From NCBI RefSeq assembly GCF_000269985.1, contig NC_016109.1, positions 4,464,001 through 4,528,000 on the forward strand: a stretch of 64,000 nt of DNA, written 5' to 3'. Of this stretch, positions 177 to 6,253 are shown one piece after another (within the stretch, counting starts at the first letter, position 1; each line of letters begins with the position of its first letter). Position numbers and translations under genes: made by a program. Source of the stretch: Kitasatospora setae KM-6054. Its GTDB lineage: Bacteria > Actinomycetota > Actinomycetes > Streptomycetales > Streptomycetaceae. The notes under the pieces are model-generated. The model did no database searches. It saw only the letters and a program-made list of their open reading frames with translations, and was not told where the DNA came from.

Positions 177-1469
177 ATGACCCGGCACGACACCGACCCG
201 ACCCCCACCGCCTGGTACGACATCCGACCGGACCTGCCCGCGCCGGTCCCGCCGATGCTGCACCCCGGCACCAAGGAACCGGTCACCGCCGACGACCTGG
301 CCCCGCTGTTCCCCGCCGAACTGGCCGCCCAGGAGCTCGGCGGCCCGCGCGAGGTCGACATCCCCGGCGCCGTCCTCGACCTGTACCGCCGCTTCCGCCC
401 CGCGCCGCTGGTCCGCGCCGAGCGGCTGGAACGCGCGCTGCGCACCCCCGCCCGGATCTACTACAAGTACGAGGGCGGCAACCCGACCGGCTCGCACAAG
501 CTCAACACCGCGCTGGCGCAGGCGTACTACAACAAGGCGGCCGGGGTGACCGGCCTGGTCACCGAGACCGGCGCCGGGCAGTGGGGCAGCGCGCTCGGCC
601 TGGCCTGCTCCTTCCTGGAGCTGGACTGCGAGGTCTTCATGGTCCGGGTCTCCTACGACCAGAAGCCGTACCGGCGGGCCCTGATGGAGACCTACGGCGC
701 CGCGGTGCACGCCTCGCCGTCCGAGCTGACCGCCGCCGGGCGGGCCGCGCTGGCGGCCGACCCGGCGGCCACCGGCAGCCTCGGCCTGGCGATCTCCGAG
801 GCGGTCGAGCGGGTCGCGGCGGCCGGCGGCCGGGCCAAGTACGCGCTCGGCTCGGTGCTCAACCACGTGCTGCTGCACCAGACCGTGATCGGCCAGGAGG
901 CGCTGGCCCAGTTCGCCCGGATCGGCGACTACCCGGACGTGGTGATCGGCGCGGCCGGCGGCGGCTCCAACTTCGGCGGCCTGGCCTTCCCGTTCCTGGG
1001 CGAGCAGTTGGCGGGCCGCCGCCCGGTGCGGGCGGTCGCGGTCGAGCCCGCGTCCTGCCCCTCGCTGACCCGCGGCCGCTACGACTACGACTTCGGCGAC
1101 AGCGCCGGCACCACCCCGCTGATGAAGATGCACACCCTCGGGCACGGCTTCACCCCGCCCGCGATCCACGCCGGCGGGCTGCGCTACCACGGCATGTCGC
1201 CGATCGTCAGCCACCTCAAGGAGCTCGGGCTGATCGAGGCCGTCGCCGTGCCGCAGACCGCCTGCTTCGAGGCGGGCGTGGCCTTCGCCCGGGCCGAGGG
1301 CGTGGTCCCCGCGCCGGAGTCCACCCACGCGGTGCGGGCGGCGGTCGACGAGGCGCTGGCCTGCCGGGAGTCCGGCGAGTCGAAGGCGATCGTGTTCGCG
1401 CTCTCCGGACACGGGCACTTCGACATGCAGGCGTACCTGGACCACTTCGCCGGCCGGCTCACCGACTGA
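177..1469 (+). CDS. trpB2: TrpB2-type tryptophan synthase beta chain (PLP enzyme)
   Basis: This 430-residue protein is a fold-type II PLP enzyme of the TrpB2 (TrpB-like) subfamily, which condenses indole with serine to tryptophan and usually works without a TrpA partner. The PLP lysine lies in GNPTGSHKLNTALAQAYY, the phosphate-binding glycine loop is GAAGGGSNFGG, and ETGAGQWG is the conserved TrpB active-site stretch. The N-terminal region with YDIRPDLP and MLHPGTKEPV is typical of TrpB2 rather than TrpB1. The ATG at 177 is chosen because GGGAGAG precedes it; the frame is open further upstream, but that would include the terminator hairpin. No other trp gene lies nearby, so this is an extra or salvage enzyme. 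Its last codons form part of a 33-bp repeat also found at 5586. Confidence 0.9.
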   Translation: MTRHDTDPTPTAWYDIRPDLPAPVPPMLHPGTKEPVTADDLAPLFPAELAAQELGGPREVDIPGAVLDLYRRFRPAPLVRAERLERALRTPARIYYKYEGGNPTGSHKLNTALAQAYYNKAAGVTGLVTETGAGQWGSALGLACSFLELDCEVFMVRVSYDQKPYRRALMETYGAAVHASPSELTAAGRAALAADPAATGSLGLAISEAVERVAAAGGRAKYALGSVLNHVLLHQTVIGQEALAQFARIGDYPDVVIGAAGGGSNFGGLAFPFLGEQLAGRRPVRAVAVEPASCPSLTRGRYDYDFGDSAGTTPLMKMHTLGHGFTPPAIHAGGLRYHGMSPIVSHLKELGLIEAVAVPQTACFEAGVAFARAEGVVPAPESTHAVRAAVDEALACRESGESKAIVFALSGHGHFDMQAYLDHFAGRLTD

Positions 1470-1495
1470 CAGTGATGATGTTCGTGGTGACGCTG
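1463..1495 (+). repeat. 33-bp direct repeat, copy 1 (trpB2 stop)
   Basis: This 33-bp stretch matches 5586-5618 at 32 of 33 positions (one T/C change). It contains the last codon and stop of trpB2 (GAC TGA), and the other copy contains the last codon and stop of the unrelated methyltransferase gene. It may be the junction of an inserted cassette or the left end of an IS110-type element. Confidence 0.85.
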
Positions 1496-1614
1496 TCCGC
1501 GAGGAGATCGCGGCCCGCAGGACAGCTCCATCCGGGTCCGGCCCGGGCACCCGGGCGCGTCAAAACACCCACCAGTTCCGGAGGACGGCGGGCAGTAAGC
1601 AGGGCAAGAGCCGA

Positions 1615-1815
1615 CTACACGCCGCCGGGCAGCAGATGGTCGGCGATGTCGTTGGCCAGTTCCTCCATGTCGTCGGCGGTCGGCTCCTCGCCGTCCTCCC
1701 AGCGGAACACCGGGATCCGCCGGCCGCACACCCCGGCCGAGCAGGTGCACGGCGGCCACAGCACCGCCAGCACGCTGGAGAGGGCCGTCGAAGGTGACGT
1801 CGCCGCCGTCGCGGC
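1615..1815 (-). pseudogene. Small Cys-containing ORF, possibly frameshifted
   Basis: On the minus strand this frame encodes LSSVLAVLWPPCTCSAGVCG followed by an acidic helix with DDMEELANDIADHLL, ending in TAG. Its composition looks like a real small protein, with a CxCxxxxC cluster. It lacks a convincing start. A GTG overlapping the TGA of the preceding small gene opens a different frame (SRDGGDVTFDG) that would need a one-base shift near 1775 to join it. It is therefore either a frameshifted gene or a short protein starting at an internal GTG. Function unknown. Confidence 0.35.
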
Positions 1816-1956
1816 TCACCGGTCGATCACCCGGACCGTGATCGACCGGCCGTCGGTGTGGCCGGTCGACGTCGCGATCTTCTCGCCGCTGGCGCGCCAC
1901 TCCCAGATCCACTCCAGCGCCACGTCGGGGTCCCTCAGGTTCTGGTTCGTCGCCAC
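1816..1956 (-). CDS. Small unknown protein (46 aa)
   Basis: GTG start at 1956 with AGAGGTGG about seven bases upstream on the minus strand. The product is short and polar (DPDVALEWIWEWRASGEKIA, ending TVRVIDR). It runs away from the XRE/DUF6879 module and lies head to tail with the Cys-containing ORF at 1615-1815, sharing the GTGA overlap typical of coupled genes. I recognise no family. The 142 bases that separate it from the divergent gene at 2098 could hold promoters for both. Confidence 0.5.
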   Translation of the reverse strand: MATNQNLRDPDVALEWIWEWRASGEKIATSTGHTDGRSITVRVIDR

Positions 1957-2097
1957 GGCGTCCACCTCTTCCCGATGGCGTGGCGGAACTTCGAATCGCA
2001 CACACAGCAGCAAGTTCGAGAAAGCTGGGCGCGCCCAGCCGGCGGATGGGGCAGGCTCTAGCACAACGATCGTCCGCAACTGCCTGGGAGCGACATC

Positions 2098-2325
2098 ATG
2101 GCCCTACGCAAGCTCGGCACGGACCCCGACAGCAAGAACAGCGGATCACCGACCGTCTACCTGGACGAGGAGACCGGCAACTACCTGTTGCAGGGCTGGA
2201 AGGTCCTCGACGCGGAACGGCTCGCCCAGATGGACATCCCCGACCACGAAACCGTGATCGAATTCCCGCAGCGCATGGTGCAGTTCTTCCCGGAGGTGAA
2301 CGGTGGCTTCGGAGAGGACGTTTGA
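2098..2325 (+). CDS. Small acidic protein upstream of DUF6879
   Basis: A 75-residue soluble protein (TVYLDEETGNYLLQGWKVLD, then IPDHETVIEFP) with ATG at 2098. Small proteins with this GNYLLQGWKV-type core commonly precede DUF6879 and XRE/DUF5753 genes in streptomycetes. It overlaps the next gene by 23 bases, so the two are translationally coupled. By analogy with the WhiJ/AbaA-type loci of Streptomyces, where an XRE regulator works with small partner proteins, it may modulate the regulator encoded two genes on; that is inference. Confidence 0.7.
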   Translation: MALRKLGTDPDSKNSGSPTVYLDEETGNYLLQGWKVLDAERLAQMDIPDHETVIEFPQRMVQFFPEVNGGFGEDV

Positions 2326-2818
2326 GGAACTGTTCGAAGCAAGTAGCAGCTCCGCAGTCCACTTGGAGATGCGGGACGGCTACATGCTGGACGACCCGTC
2401 GTACCTGGCGTGGCTGGAAGATCGTCGGCTCGACCTCGACGACCCGGAAAGTCAGGAGTGGCGGACGCTGGTCCGCTCGGCCGTAGACCGAGGCGTAGAG
2501 GTCCGCCGCGCCCGGATCGTCTCCGAGCCGGTGAGCGACTACATCCGCTTCGAACACGAGATCACTGCCCCGCACAACGTCAAGGCGGGCGAACAGGTCC
2601 GCTGGCTACCCCGGAGGCTCGCTACCGATCTGGCGTTGCCCGGCAACGACTTCTGGATCTTCGACGACCGTCTGGCACTGATCAACCACTTCTCTGGAGA
2701 CGGCGACTGGGCCGACACGGAGACCGTCACCGATCCGGCTGTGGTCAAGCTCTGCTCCGACGCGTTCGCAGCGGTCTGGGAACGTGCCGTGCCGCACGAG
2801 GACTACCACCCCGCCTGA
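2303..2818 (+). CDS. DUF6879 family protein
   Basis: A 171-residue protein with the DUF6879 pattern: VEVRRARIVSEPVSDYIRFE in the middle, then AGEQVRWLPRR and DFWIFDDRLALINHF. The GTG start at 2303 follows GGAGGTGAA closely and lies inside the end of the upstream gene. The biochemical role of this family is unknown. It is found beside XRE/DUF5753 regulators in actinobacteria, as here, where the regulator starts 7 bases after this stop. The gene belongs to a three-gene unit 2098-3680. Confidence 0.85.
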   Translation: MASERTFEELFEASSSSAVHLEMRDGYMLDDPSYLAWLEDRRLDLDDPESQEWRTLVRSAVDRGVEVRRARIVSEPVSDYIRFEHEITAPHNVKAGEQVRWLPRRLATDLALPGNDFWIFDDRLALINHFSGDGDWADTETVTDPAVVKLCSDAFAAVWERAVPHEDYHPA

Positions 2819-2825
2819 TCGATCG

Positions 2826-3680
2826 ATGGACCATCCACAGCAGTCGCCGTCCTCCAGCGCCCGACAAGCCCGATTCGACCTCGGCAAGAGGCTGAAGGAC
2901 ATCCGGAAAGGCGCCGGCCTGACAGCGCGGGAGTTGGCCTCCCTCGCAGGCTGGCACGAGTCCAAGGCTTCACGGCTGCAAAGCGGCCGAACGTCCCCTA
3001 CGGAGTCGGACATTCGCTTGTGGACGGTACTCTGTGGCGTCCCCGAGCAGGCGGATGATCTGATTGCCACAGCGCACAGCGTCGAAGGCATGTACGTCGA
3101 GTGGCGCCGCCGAACACGGGCCGGTCTACGACATGTCCAGCAGGCCGCCGTGCCGCTCTACCAGCGCACTCGACACTTCCGAATCTACGAGCCCGGCGTC
3201 TGCCCCGGCCTACTCCAAACACCCGCATACGCGTCAGCGCTCATGGGCGCGATCATCGCGTTTCAGCACATCCCCGACGACACCGACGCCGCGGTGGCCG
3301 CCCGCATCGAACGCCAGCAGGTGCTGCACCAGGGTGGCACCTTCGCCTTCCTCCTGGAGGAATCAGTCCTCCGTGCGCGGGTGGCCGACGACGAGACCAT
3401 GGCCGGACAGCTCGGCTACCTACTGCACGCGACCACACTGCCGTCCGTCAGCATCGGGATCGTACCGACGTCGGCTCACCGGGCGATGTGGCCGGTCGAA
3501 GGGTTCTGGATCTTCGACGAGGAACGCGTCCTCGTCGAACTCGTCACCGCCGAGGTGACCGTCACACAGCCGCGCGAGATCGAACTCTACGCGCGGACCT
3601 TCACCACCCTCGCCACCATCGCCGTCTACGGCGCGAAAGCTCGCGCCCTCATCACGGGGGCCATCGACGCGCTCAGGTGA
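2826..3680 (+). CDS. XRE-family regulator with DUF5753 domain
   Basis: A 284-residue regulator. Residues about 16-70 form the helix-turn-helix (LKDIRKGAGLTARELASLAG, then HESKASRLQSGRTSPTESDI). The rest is a DUF5753 ligand- or partner-binding domain (LYQRTRHFRIYEPGVCPGLL, then YASALM, with FAFLLEESVLRARV further on). Proteins of this type, such as WhiJ, control development and antibiotic genes in Streptomyces and usually act with a small DUF397 or similar partner. No DUF397 gene is present here; DUF6879 takes its place. ATG 2826 gives the standard length. Confidence 0.88.
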   Translation: MDHPQQSPSSSARQARFDLGKRLKDIRKGAGLTARELASLAGWHESKASRLQSGRTSPTESDIRLWTVLCGVPEQADDLIATAHSVEGMYVEWRRRTRAGLRHVQQAAVPLYQRTRHFRIYEPGVCPGLLQTPAYASALMGAIIAFQHIPDDTDAAVAARIERQQVLHQGGTFAFLLEESVLRARVADDETMAGQLGYLLHATTLPSVSIGIVPTSAHRAMWPVEGFWIFDEERVLVELVTAEVTVTQPREIELYARTFTTLATIAVYGAKARALITGAIDALR

Positions 3681-3828
3681 ATCCATGCAAGTTCGAGCAA
3701 GTTCCTGGAGACGCCCCTCGCCCTGCTCCTAACGTCGTGTCAAGCAGGAACACTCGACCGGCGAACGGGAGCAACCCCATGGCGGCCTCGGGACAGGAAC
3801 CGAAGTACCGGCCTCGCAGCCCAGCCTC

Positions 3829-3948
3829 GTGATCAAGACCTACGCGGTCGACCCGACCGACGGCACCCGCGCCCTCCGGTCGGCGACCTCGTCCGACGAG
3901 CCGATCCCAGCCCACCACAGCCGGTCCACGCAGGACGACGTCGCCTGA
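3829..3948 (+). CDS. Doubtful 39-residue peptide
   Basis: From a GTG at 3829 the frame gives IKTYAVDPTDGTRALRSATS and a polar tail ending in a TGA at 3946. The frame is open back to 3733. No good ribosome binding site is visible. It is listed because it sits in a run of small ORFs between the XRE regulator and the methyltransferase and has a plausible RiPP-precursor size. Another short frame from ATG 3779 (17 codons) overlaps it and is equally uncertain. Confidence 0.22.
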   Translation: MIKTYAVDPTDGTRALRSATSSDEPIPAHHSRSTQDDVA

Positions 3949-3958
3949 CGGGCACCCC

Positions 3959-4123
3959 GTGGACTCGTTCGCCACCAGCATCTTCGGCATCGGCGGCTAC
4001 TTCAACGGCGCCCGCGCCGCCCGCAGCGAGATCCTCGCCGCCCGCGAATCCGGCCAGGGACTCCCCCTCCTGAACGCCGGCGAGCCCTACCTCGGCGACG
4101 CCAGCGCCACGCAACGCCCCTGA
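3959..4123 (+). CDS. Small peptide (54 aa), unknown
   Basis: GTG 3959 opens 54 codons (DSFATSIFGIGGYFNGARAA, then EILAARESGQGLPLLNAGEP). The segment is amphipathic and unlike the very polar neighbours. It starts 10 bases after the preceding TGA, so coupling is possible, but only a weak ACGGG motif lies upstream. It might be the remaining end of a larger protein or a leader peptide. No family recognised. Confidence 0.35.
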   Translation: MDSFATSIFGIGGYFNGARAARSEILAARESGQGLPLLNAGEPYLGDASATQRP

Positions 4124-4238
4124 ACTCCCGCCCCGGCCGCCGCTCTGCCAAGAACCCGGCCGGGGCGGGCCGGCAACACCGCGCAATCCGAACGCCAACC
4201 AGCCCTCAGAATCCGCACGTCGTGAAGGAGGGACCAGT

Positions 4239-4337
4239 ATGACAACCCCCACTCCCACCGAGCGCCCGCCCGGCGACACCGGCCCCGGCAGCAGGCCGAC
4301 GCGAAGCTGCACCCACCCCACCAAGCGGACCAACTGA
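4239..4337 (+). CDS. Very small peptide with strong RBS (32 aa)
   Basis: ATG 4239 is preceded by GAAGGAGGG at near-ideal spacing, which is strong support for translation. The product is Pro/Thr-rich with one Cys (TTPTPTERPPGDTGPG near the start, SCTHPTKRTN at the end). It precedes another 31-residue peptide and the methyltransferase gene on the same strand. It could be a RiPP precursor or a regulatory peptide; nothing in the sequence proves either. Confidence 0.55.
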   Translation: MTTPTPTERPPGDTGPGSRPTRSCTHPTKRTN

Positions 4338-4355
4338 GCGACAGGAGAACCAGCC

Positions 4356-4451
4356 ATGGCGGGTAAGCACGGTGACGGCAAGGGCGGATCCGAAGGGGAC
4401 AAGAAGCAGACCCCCAAGGAGTCCGACGGCCAGTGGCCCCCGAAGAAGTGA
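4356..4451 (+). CDS. Very small Lys/Gly-rich peptide (31 aa)
   Basis: ATG 4356 follows ACAGGAGAACCAGCC, a good ribosome binding site. The peptide is strongly hydrophilic (AGKHGDGKGGSEGDKKQTPK, ending QWPPKK). Its stop is 10 bases before the methyltransferase ATG, so the two are probably cotranslated. The position suggests a possible substrate or partner of the methyltransferase; this is inference. There is no leader/core pattern of a known RiPP class. Confidence 0.55.
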   Translation: MAGKHGDGKGGSEGDKKQTPKESDGQWPPKK

Positions 4452-4461
4452 GTTTCAACTG

Positions 4462-5592
4462 ATGGACAAATACGCGCAGTTGCTCGCCGAACTAACTTCG
4501 GCTGGTGTCCTGGGCGAGGAGTGGCGGGGCGCGTTCGAGCGCGCCCCGCGCTCTGCCTTCGTGCCGGACACCGTCTGGGCCCCCGACACCGACCACCCCA
4601 CCGGCTACCGCCGGATCACCCGCAGCAACGACCCCACCGACTGGTGGGCGCTGGTCAACGCGAACGACGTCGTCGTCACCCAGCTCGACGACGGGGCCGA
4701 GGACGGGCCAGGGACCGCAACGTCCTCCGCGTCGATGCCGTCCCTCGTCGCCACCATGCTCCGACACCTCGACGCCGCCGACGGACACACCGTCCTCGAC
4801 ATCGGCACCGGCACCGGCTGGACCAGTGCCCTACTGTCCGCCCGGCTCGGAGAGCAACGAGTCACCACCATCGAAGTCGATCAGGCAATGGCTGCTGGAG
4901 CCACGTCCGCGCTCGCCAAGGCCGGCTTCGACCCAACCCGCATCATCGGCGACGGCCTCGCCGGTTGGCTGCCCAACGCTCCATACGATCGCATCCACTC
5001 CACCGCGGCCGTCCAGACCGTCCCCCGCGCCTGGATCGACCAGACCACCCCCGGCGGCATCATCGTCACCCCCTGGGGCACCCCGTTCGCCAACGCCGGG
5101 CTGCTGCGCCTCGTCATCGGCGAACACGGCCAACCGACCTACGGCCGGTTCGTCGACAACGTCACCTTCATGTGGATGCGCGCCCAACGGCCGCATCGGG
5201 TAACCGATCTCGCCGAGATCCCCAGCGTCCTCAGCGCATCCCCGATGGATCCCAGAATGGCGTTGGAGGACGTGGACGCCGCGTTCACCATCGGACTCCG
5301 GGTGCCCGGAGTCCGCTTCGAACACCGCTGGGACACCGCCGACCGCACCAGCACCTACCGGATGCACATGTCGGACGGAGCAGGCTCGTGGGCGTCAGTC
5401 CACTACCACGAGTGGGACGCCGAGGACGCTCTTCTCCAAGCCGGTCCCCGCCGGCTCTGGGACGAGATCACCGCAGCCCGCCTCTGGTGGCTGGAAGAGG
5501 GCAAGCCGTCGCTGTCCCAGTTCGGCCTCACCCTCACCCCAGACGGCCAACAGACCGTCTGGCTGAACGACCCCGGCAACGTCGTCGACTGA
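4462..5592 (+). CDS. PIMT-like class I methyltransferase
   Basis: A 376-residue SAM-dependent methyltransferase resembling protein-L-isoaspartate O-methyltransferase. Motif I is VLDIGTGTGWTSALLS (about residues 110-125). It is preceded by an N-terminal region with FVPDTVWAPDT and the PIMT-like MPSLVATMLRHL, and followed by VTTIEVD and PGGIIVTPWG. A long C-terminal extension (about residues 230-376) is typical of actinobacterial members found beside XRE regulators or in RiPP clusters (FxLD and ATP-grasp/graspetide systems). No ATP-grasp ligase or lanthipeptide enzyme is adjacent, so the substrate is unknown; the two small peptides just upstream are candidates. Its stop codon lies inside the second copy of the 33-bp repeat. 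Confidence 0.85.
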   Translation: MDKYAQLLAELTSAGVLGEEWRGAFERAPRSAFVPDTVWAPDTDHPTGYRRITRSNDPTDWWALVNANDVVVTQLDDGAEDGPGTATSSASMPSLVATMLRHLDAADGHTVLDIGTGTGWTSALLSARLGEQRVTTIEVDQAMAAGATSALAKAGFDPTRIIGDGLAGWLPNAPYDRIHSTAAVQTVPRAWIDQTTPGGIIVTPWGTPFANAGLLRLVIGEHGQPTYGRFVDNVTFMWMRAQRPHRVTDLAEIPSVLSASPMDPRMALEDVDAAFTIGLRVPGVRFEHRWDTADRTSTYRMHMSDGAGSWASVHYHEWDAEDALLQAGPRRLWDEITAARLWWLEEGKPSLSQFGLTLTPDGQQTVWLNDPGNVVD

Positions 5593-5618
5593 CAGTGATG
5601 ATGTCCGTGGTGACGCTG
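5586..5618 (+). repeat. 33-bp direct repeat, copy 2 (methyltransferase stop)
   Basis: Matches 1463-1495 at 32 of 33 positions, at a distance of 4123 bp. It carries the final GAC TGA of the methyltransferase gene and continues into the non-coding DNA before an IS110 transposase fragment. If it is an IS110-type left end, the CT of GACTGA would be the usual core dinucleotide; if it is a cassette junction, the 1496-5618 segment is one unit. Confidence 0.85.
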
Positions 5619-5827
5619 CGGGTGGGTCTGACTCGCCGACTGACTGACGTCTCGACTGTCCTGTTTGGGATTTGTCGGCCTGCCGGGCGTCACCACGCAC
5701 GCGGCCGCACGGGCGCTTGTGACTTCATGGGAGCCTGGCCAGAGGCCCCACCACTGCCTTGTCCACCCGCCCGACCGGCGCGTGCCGCCCCCGGCTCGGA
5801 CAAGCGGCAAGGACGGGCACGACCAGC

Positions 5828-6253
5828 ATGACGCCTGGCGGCCGGGAGATCACCGGCGGAGTCGACACCCACGGCCTGACCCACCATGCGGCGGTGGTCG
5901 ACCCCATCGGCCGGCACCTGGCCGACCGGGAGCTCCCCACCACCGTCCGCGGCTACCGGGACCTCCTGGACTGGATGCGCTCGCACGGCGCCCTGAGCGC
6001 AGTCGGCGTGGAGGGCACCGGCGCCTACGGGGCCGAGTTGGCGCGCGTGCTGATCGCCGCCGGCGTCACGGTCGTCGACGTTGACCGGCCCGACCGCGAG
6101 ACCCGGCGCACGAAGGGCAAATCCGACCCGATCGATGCCCCCGCCGCCGCGACGGCCGTCCTGTCGGGCCGGACCACCGGAATTCCCAAGAGCCGGGACG
6201 GCGCGGTCGGGGCCGTCCCTGTCCTGCGGATCGCCCGCCGGACGCCCGGGTGA
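5828..6253 (+). pseudogene. IS110-family transposase, N-terminal fragment
   Basis: The 141 codons match the RuvC-like DEDD domain of IS110 transposases: GGVDTHGLTHHAAVVDPIGR with the first catalytic Asp, VGVEGTGAYGAELARVL with the Glu, and KGKSDPIDAPAAATAVL with the Asp pair. The similarity stops after PKSRDGAVGAVPVLRIARR, and a stop follows at once. The C-terminal transposase domain with its serine motif is missing, so this is a truncated, inactive copy. The 209 bases before the start could include the non-coding (bridge RNA-type) end of the element. Bases 6254-6432 hold no recognisable gene. Confidence 0.8.

Follow-up and report, generated by a model that had tools for sequence, protein, structure and literature searches.

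The type I pamtides, or imiditides, are a class of ribosomally synthesized and posttranslationally modified peptides (RiPPs) described in 2023, in which a small precursor rich in Gly, Pro, Asp and Lys is encoded with a peptide aspartyl O-methyltransferase (PAMT) extended at its C-terminus, other primary enzymes being absent (PMC10787088, PMC13001092). The published clusters consist of two genes and lack both ligase and cyclase (PMC10787088, PMC13001092), their enzymes act with the precursor alone (PMC10787088), and WXXXGXP is given as the imiditide-enzyme motif (PMC13001092). Here, a locus of Kitasatospora setae KM-6054 is compared with these systems. It lies in a stretch of 64,000 nucleotides (nt) of contig NC_016109.1 (positions 4,464,001 to 4,528,000, forward strand; hereafter the window), where a peptide gene directly precedes a gene for a methyltransferase resembling protein isoaspartyl O-methyltransferase (PIMT). 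In our assessment the locus is most probably a type I pamtide gene cluster on a recently arrived cassette.

The probable precursor and its methyltransferase

The module at 2098-5592, as read from open reading frames (ORFs) and Pfam matches, encodes on the + strand a 75-residue protein, a DUF6879 protein, an XRE regulator, peptides A and B, and the PIMT-like methyltransferase. Its last part is as follows.

4239..4337, + strand: peptide A, a 32-residue Pro-rich micropeptide of the RPPG family (ORF with ribosome binding site; tblastn)
4356..4451, + strand: peptide B, the likely 31-residue precursor peptide (conserved beside orthologous PAMTs; composition)
4425..4427, + strand: codon of Asp24 in the DGQW motif, predicted modification site (DGQW in 13 of 13 rows)
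4462..5592, + strand: PIMT-like PAMT, 376 residues (PF01135, E 3.1e-28)

The original prediction, made from the window alone, had placed two small peptides with clear ribosome binding sites (4239, 4356) directly before a PIMT-like methyltransferase of the RiPP-modifying kind, and both elements hold on direct reading. The ATG at 4239 is preceded by GAAGGAGGGACCAGT and opens 32 residues, and that at 4356 is preceded by GACAGGAGAACCAGCC and opens 31, so that a purine-rich ribosome binding site stands before each; 18 nt separate the stop of peptide A from the start of peptide B, and the PAMT ATG (4462) lies 10 nt past the peptide B stop. The enzyme has the PCMT domain, the long C-terminal part and WXXXGXP. 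Two further upstream peptides that had been suggested find no support in conservation: the ORF at 3829-3948 matches only the closest relative, over 20 residues, and the DNA alignment contains indels that break the frame; that at 3959-4123 has a weak match of 21 residues.

In the methyltransferase, the PCMT match (PF01135) ends at residue 206 of 376, leaving on this PIMT homologue a C-terminal extension of more than 100 residues. The protein carries a GTGTG motif for S-adenosylmethionine (SAM) and, near the C-terminus at residue 343, WLEEGKP as its version of WXXXGXP, and it matches NCBIfam TIGR04188 at 292 bits over positions 1-362 of 363. An AlphaFold model built from 8 rows had a mean predicted local distance difference test score of 53 and did not confirm the fold of the extension. 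Among the matches listed, nine close PAMT relatives with 60-78% identity occur in other genomes of the genus, and the peptide B motif stands beside all nine, bearing out the expectation of conserved peptide-methyltransferase pairs elsewhere.

Peptide B contains 7 Gly, 7 Lys, 3 Asp and 3 Pro among its 31 residues, and no Cys. When precursors were read upstream of close PAMT homologues (13 rows: the window, the nine close relatives and three more loci), DGQW with its one candidate Asp, Asp24, was present in all 13 and an N-terminus of the HGDG(K/Q)GG type in 12, the exception being locus L050; L012, with a stop inside the requested stretch, was omitted from alignment A1. More remote PAMTs, some of them from Streptomyces and Nocardiopsis, stand beside other Gly/Lys/Pro-rich peptides, most of which have DG: this was so at 68 of the 80 same-genus loci considered and at 8 of 9 others, as judged with a filter that favours that composition. 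The 80 loci are for the most part the top-scoring entries of a longer list, to which the seven strongest PAMTs of this genome were added. Enzyme and precursor distances are correlated (r 0.92, 26 loci), and the pair recurs amid unrelated gene surroundings. At the level of sequence, the precursor-PAMT pair is thus shown to be conserved as one unit, and peptide B is the likely substrate. The reading of the locus as a minimal peptide-modifying cassette therefore survives for peptide B, which is kept beside homologous methyltransferases, while its extension to both peptides as substrates does not. At L058 and L179, two loci of the genus, the PAMT frames are broken relative to the window and the precursor is retained.

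Like SpaA-SpaM and NmaA-NmaM, both of type I, the locus combines in two genes a PAMT with WXXXGXP and a linear Gly/Pro/Asp/Lys-rich precursor with a conserved Asp, without a cyclase. It thus appears to belong to the type I pamtides, every feature of the class that can be read from sequence being present. It differs from the type I clusters described in the available portions of PMC10787088 and PMC13001092 by its 31-residue precursor, by DGQW, and by the DUF6879-XRE pair and RPPG micropeptide upstream. Assignment to the type II pamtides (cysimiditides), which needs two CXXCXGXG motifs, was rejected for this Cys-free precursor. The group 13 graspetides (graspimiditides) use the same PAMT family, as the TIGR04188 match indicates, and co-occur with DUF397 and DUF5753 genes (PMC13097080), but this assignment was likewise rejected, as there is no ATP-grasp ligase beside the precursor here; DUF397 gave no Pfam match in the nine ORFs scanned.

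By analogy with SpaM, NmaM and other characterised relatives, the PAMT would use SAM to methylate Asp24 of the linear peptide, and the methyl ester would close to an aspartimide that opens mostly to isoaspartate. Substrate recognition may be by charge, between the Lys-rich tail of the peptide and the C-terminal part of the enzyme.

Regulator pair, micropeptide and sister cassette

The features upstream of the peptides are as follows.

2098..2325, + strand: 75-residue protein, first gene of the regulator module (ORF)
2303..2818, + strand: DUF6879 protein, with a 23-nt overlap with the 75-residue gene (PF21806, E 1.2e-58)
2826..3680, + strand: XRE regulator with HTH_31 (PF13560, E 1.8e-11) and DUF5753 (PF19054, E 3.4e-34)
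4127..4169, + strand: GC-rich stem-loop of 13 bp, 5' of the micropeptide (fold, z -1.10; region also aligned in L048 and L049)

A longer start of the XRE gene is possible at 2784, and about 560 nt separate this gene from peptide A. The 75-residue protein had no match in Pfam or NCBIfam. DUF6879 and XRE genes lie upstream of the PAMT on the same strand at 30 of the 80 same-genus loci, in 24 of which tblastn found a homologue of the 75-residue gene before them. In 11 genomes, 22 of 53 PAMTs had a DUF6879 gene no more than 3 kb away, where random placement would give 0.37, and a PAMT was the neighbour of 26 of 79 DUF6879 genes (the 14 weakest of 93 DUF6879 matches were omitted, and PAMT and GNAT-like rows are those among the matches listed). 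As judged from gene positions, the pair is a real partner of the PAMTs and a frequent neighbour.

The regulator pair and its cargo have nevertheless followed separate paths. In Mantel comparisons, which covered 27 of the 30 full-module loci, DUF6879 and XRE distances were tightly correlated (r 0.95), while PAMT distances were uncorrelated with those of DUF6879 (r 0.04, permutation p 0.26) or XRE (r 0.07, permutation p 0.12), and precursor distances likewise showed no correlation with the pair. In a tree of 55 XRE proteins (29 from PAMT loci, 11 from loci with the GNAT-like protein considered below, 15 from others), the cargo label changed 23 times, against a shuffled mean of 22.7. The XRE protein nearest to that of the window (76% identity) comes from a locus with neither enzyme and the next two from GNAT-like loci; near-identical XRE proteins serve both cargoes. 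Regulator and cargo are therefore read as separately inherited halves. The XRE and DUF6879 proteins would control transcription of the cassette and, because regulator pairs are exchanged between cargoes, may respond to something other than a specific peptide.

DUF6879 and the DUF5753 part of XRE share an FWIFDD segment that is also a DNA repeat (2635-2667, 3488-3520), and an hhalign comparison of one pair (probability 50, E 1.6e-4, C-terminal part of DUF5753) is suggestive only. No mention of DUF6879 was found in the literature searched; DUF5753 and DUF397 genes have been noted as graspetide neighbours (PMC8939145, PMC13097080). Streptomyces XRE-DUF397 pairs (PMC10364602) resemble the present one in joining an XRE regulator to a small protein partner, but here the partner is DUF6879, encoded before XRE with the 75-residue protein, and peptide-enzyme cargo follows. 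At L130, L141 and L143, a DUF6879-XRE pair without a PAMT or GNAT-like gene is followed by other small proteins, possibly further cargo types; the two that were scanned had no Pfam match.

Peptide A belongs to a different conserved family from the precursors, sharing M(S/T)TP...RPPG(PG)PMPP and having no conserved Asp, and because of this it is probably not a substrate of the PAMT. Among the loci examined, tblastn found it in L048, the closest relative (E 6e-8), and in L054 and L090 (E 2e-4). With a motif and ribosome-site filter it was found in 17 of 89 PAMT rows, and it precedes a Lys-rich peptide at 13 of 28 loci found through the GNAT-like protein. A search of 297 family genomes with the DNA pattern (G/R)PPGPMPP(D/E) gave nine matches, of which the eight in the genus all adjoin a cassette (seven GNAT-like, one PAMT); the ninth, from a different genus, falls within a long open frame, and the pattern reversed as a control matched once. 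The pattern was derived from such loci, and this result therefore speaks for specificity and not as independent discovery. RPPGPMPP gave seven matches in 70 genomes (three by GNAT-like genes, one by a PAMT, one at a protein start, two elsewhere), with one in the control. The protein start is that of L176, where RPPGPMPP opens a 177-residue protein with a WHA..T..Y..VHH pattern, like the proteins that follow DUF6879-XRE in L141 and L143. No mention of the RPPG micropeptide family was found in the literature searched.

In three close pairs of peptide A genes, two encoding identical peptides and one a single residue change, 10 of 11 nucleotide differences fall at third codon positions, which suggests that the peptide is translated; a codon test that used 23 micropeptides chosen for an amino-acid motif was circular and was set aside. 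Leaders dependent on elongation factor P (EF-P) are known in other systems (PMC5299641, PMC5021804), and RPPG conservation and the ribosome binding site would fit such a role here. The preferred, tentative view is of peptide A as a cis-acting leader on which ribosomes would pause at Pro-Pro-Gly and whose translation may set that of the precursor, 18 nt further on. A possible terminator or attenuator is the stem-loop at 4127-4169, unexceptional for its composition; a scan for sigma-70-type promoters and terminators gave nothing above shuffles.

One peptide A match also led to a sister cassette at L125, in the order DUF6879, XRE, peptide A, Lys-rich peptide and a 187-residue protein. This GNAT-like protein had 28 matches (including two remote and five fragments) in 16 of 70 genus genomes, 19 of the 28 being preceded by a KHKG...PPKH peptide, and no strong match outside the genus among 297 family genomes. 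Its label comes from weak, sub-threshold Pfam matches (best E 0.041; Acetyltransf_CG was matched weakly by 9 of 13 members) and from reading of the sequence, and its profile found nothing at E below 0.6 among sequences of solved structures. Loci with DUF6879-XRE, RPPG micropeptide, KHKG...PPKH peptide and GNAT-like protein include L125, L150, L151, L154 and L157. The shared front end points to a second peptide-enzyme pair, no description of which was found in the literature searched. In the GNAT-modified RiPPs (selidamides and nostolysamides; PMC13060382), an acyltransferase acts on a Lys-bearing peptide, a comparison that applies to the sister cassette only and is limited by its sub-threshold GNAT label.

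The core of the locus would be one more representative of the class described in 2023. What goes beyond that description is the exchangeable regulator, the conserved micropeptide and the sister cassette. One speculative possibility is that cassettes of the genus share an exchangeable DUF6879-XRE and RPPG front end with varied back ends (PAMT and precursor, or KHKG...PPKH and GNAT-like protein), the micropeptide being a ribosome-pausing switch, and that exchange of regulators prevents cross-control among paralogous cassettes of one genome. The regulator pair and the conserved micropeptide might provide two handles for switching on silent imiditide clusters.

Alternative explanations

Several observations weigh against the interpretation given above. 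The PAMT score of 292 bits is under the curated TIGR04188 cut-off of 380, the precursor has 31 residues where about 45 are typical of type I, that of L050 lacks the usual N-terminal half, and at 10 of the 80 same-genus loci the filter, which selects by composition, found no precursor-like ORF. None of the nine PAMT loci of other genera has DUF6879-XRE upstream on the same strand, and the linkage may therefore be genus-specific. For peptide A, pooling ten close pairs gave 24, 25 and 39 differences by codon position, a modest excess, and in L048 micropeptide and precursor form a single fusion, an arrangement as compatible with a leader segment as with a cis regulator. The PAMT might instead play a secondary part in making a graspetide, lasso peptide or lanthipeptide, with the primary enzyme encoded at another site, since its best NCBIfam model, TIGR04188, is graspetide-associated and the genome has graspetide ATP-grasp genes, adjoining two of its other PAMTs (G000:C1 801614-803661 and 1783411-1785458). 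This is very unlikely for the present locus: the nearest ATP-grasp match (TIGR04187, at 4159401) is about 300 kb away, the precursor has no Cys, and the precursor-PAMT pair recurs in unrelated surroundings. When the ORFs in the window's first 20 kb and in 12 kb upstream were read, no lanthipeptide or lasso enzymes were recognised, in agreement with the lack of a ligase or cyclase noted in the original prediction. A housekeeping protein-repair PIMT beside incidental peptide ORFs would account for the PCMT domain, but is hardly credible given the C-terminal extension, the precursor conservation and the patchy, mobile distribution.

The remaining alternatives concern the front end. The cassette had also been proposed to serve signalling, and in such a scheme the modified peptide would be an autoinducer read by DUF6879 or by the DUF5753 domain of XRE, with which the regulator pair beside peptide and enzyme at 30 of 80 loci would agree. 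This is improbable, as the regulator does not co-vary with peptide or enzyme, XRE proteins that are almost the same accompany both PAMT and GNAT-like cargoes, and many PAMT loci have no regulator pair; on the Mantel null and the shuffle-like cargo changes, a receptor for a specific peptide was rejected, and the signalling role is left without support. Peptide A could also be an additional product, or a split leader peptide provided in trans, although we doubt it. In favour are its conservation beside two cargo types and its occurrence as a fusion with the precursor (L048) and with a larger protein (L176); against this, by the filter most PAMT loci lack it, and the published type I enzymes need only the precursor (PMC10787088). 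A cis-acting leader remains the preferred account of peptide A.

Probable mobility of the cassette

The module is bracketed by two direct repeat copies, with a truncated transposase next.

1464..1495, + strand: 32-nt direct repeat D1, left copy (repeat search)
5587..5618, + strand: 32-nt direct repeat D1, right copy (repeat search)
5759..6253, + strand: truncated IS110-type transposase (PF01548, E 1.1e-15 over residues 34-147)

Window positions 1471-6232 are absent from the relative G024 (compared locus L193, the one informative locus of 11), where the flanking genes, which we take to be tryptophan-synthase-beta-like and HlyD-like, are adjacent. Third-position GC is 0.81-0.84 inside the module and at least 0.95 for most neighbours, and in other genomes the cassette occurs without either flanking gene nearby. 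Horizontal gain is the probable origin of the cassette here, with loss in G024 as the alternative. The repeat (TGACAGTGATGATG...) runs over a stop codon, and a third copy elsewhere in this genome (G000:C1:6124845), with 2 mismatches in 27 nt, follows the apparent stop of another gene.

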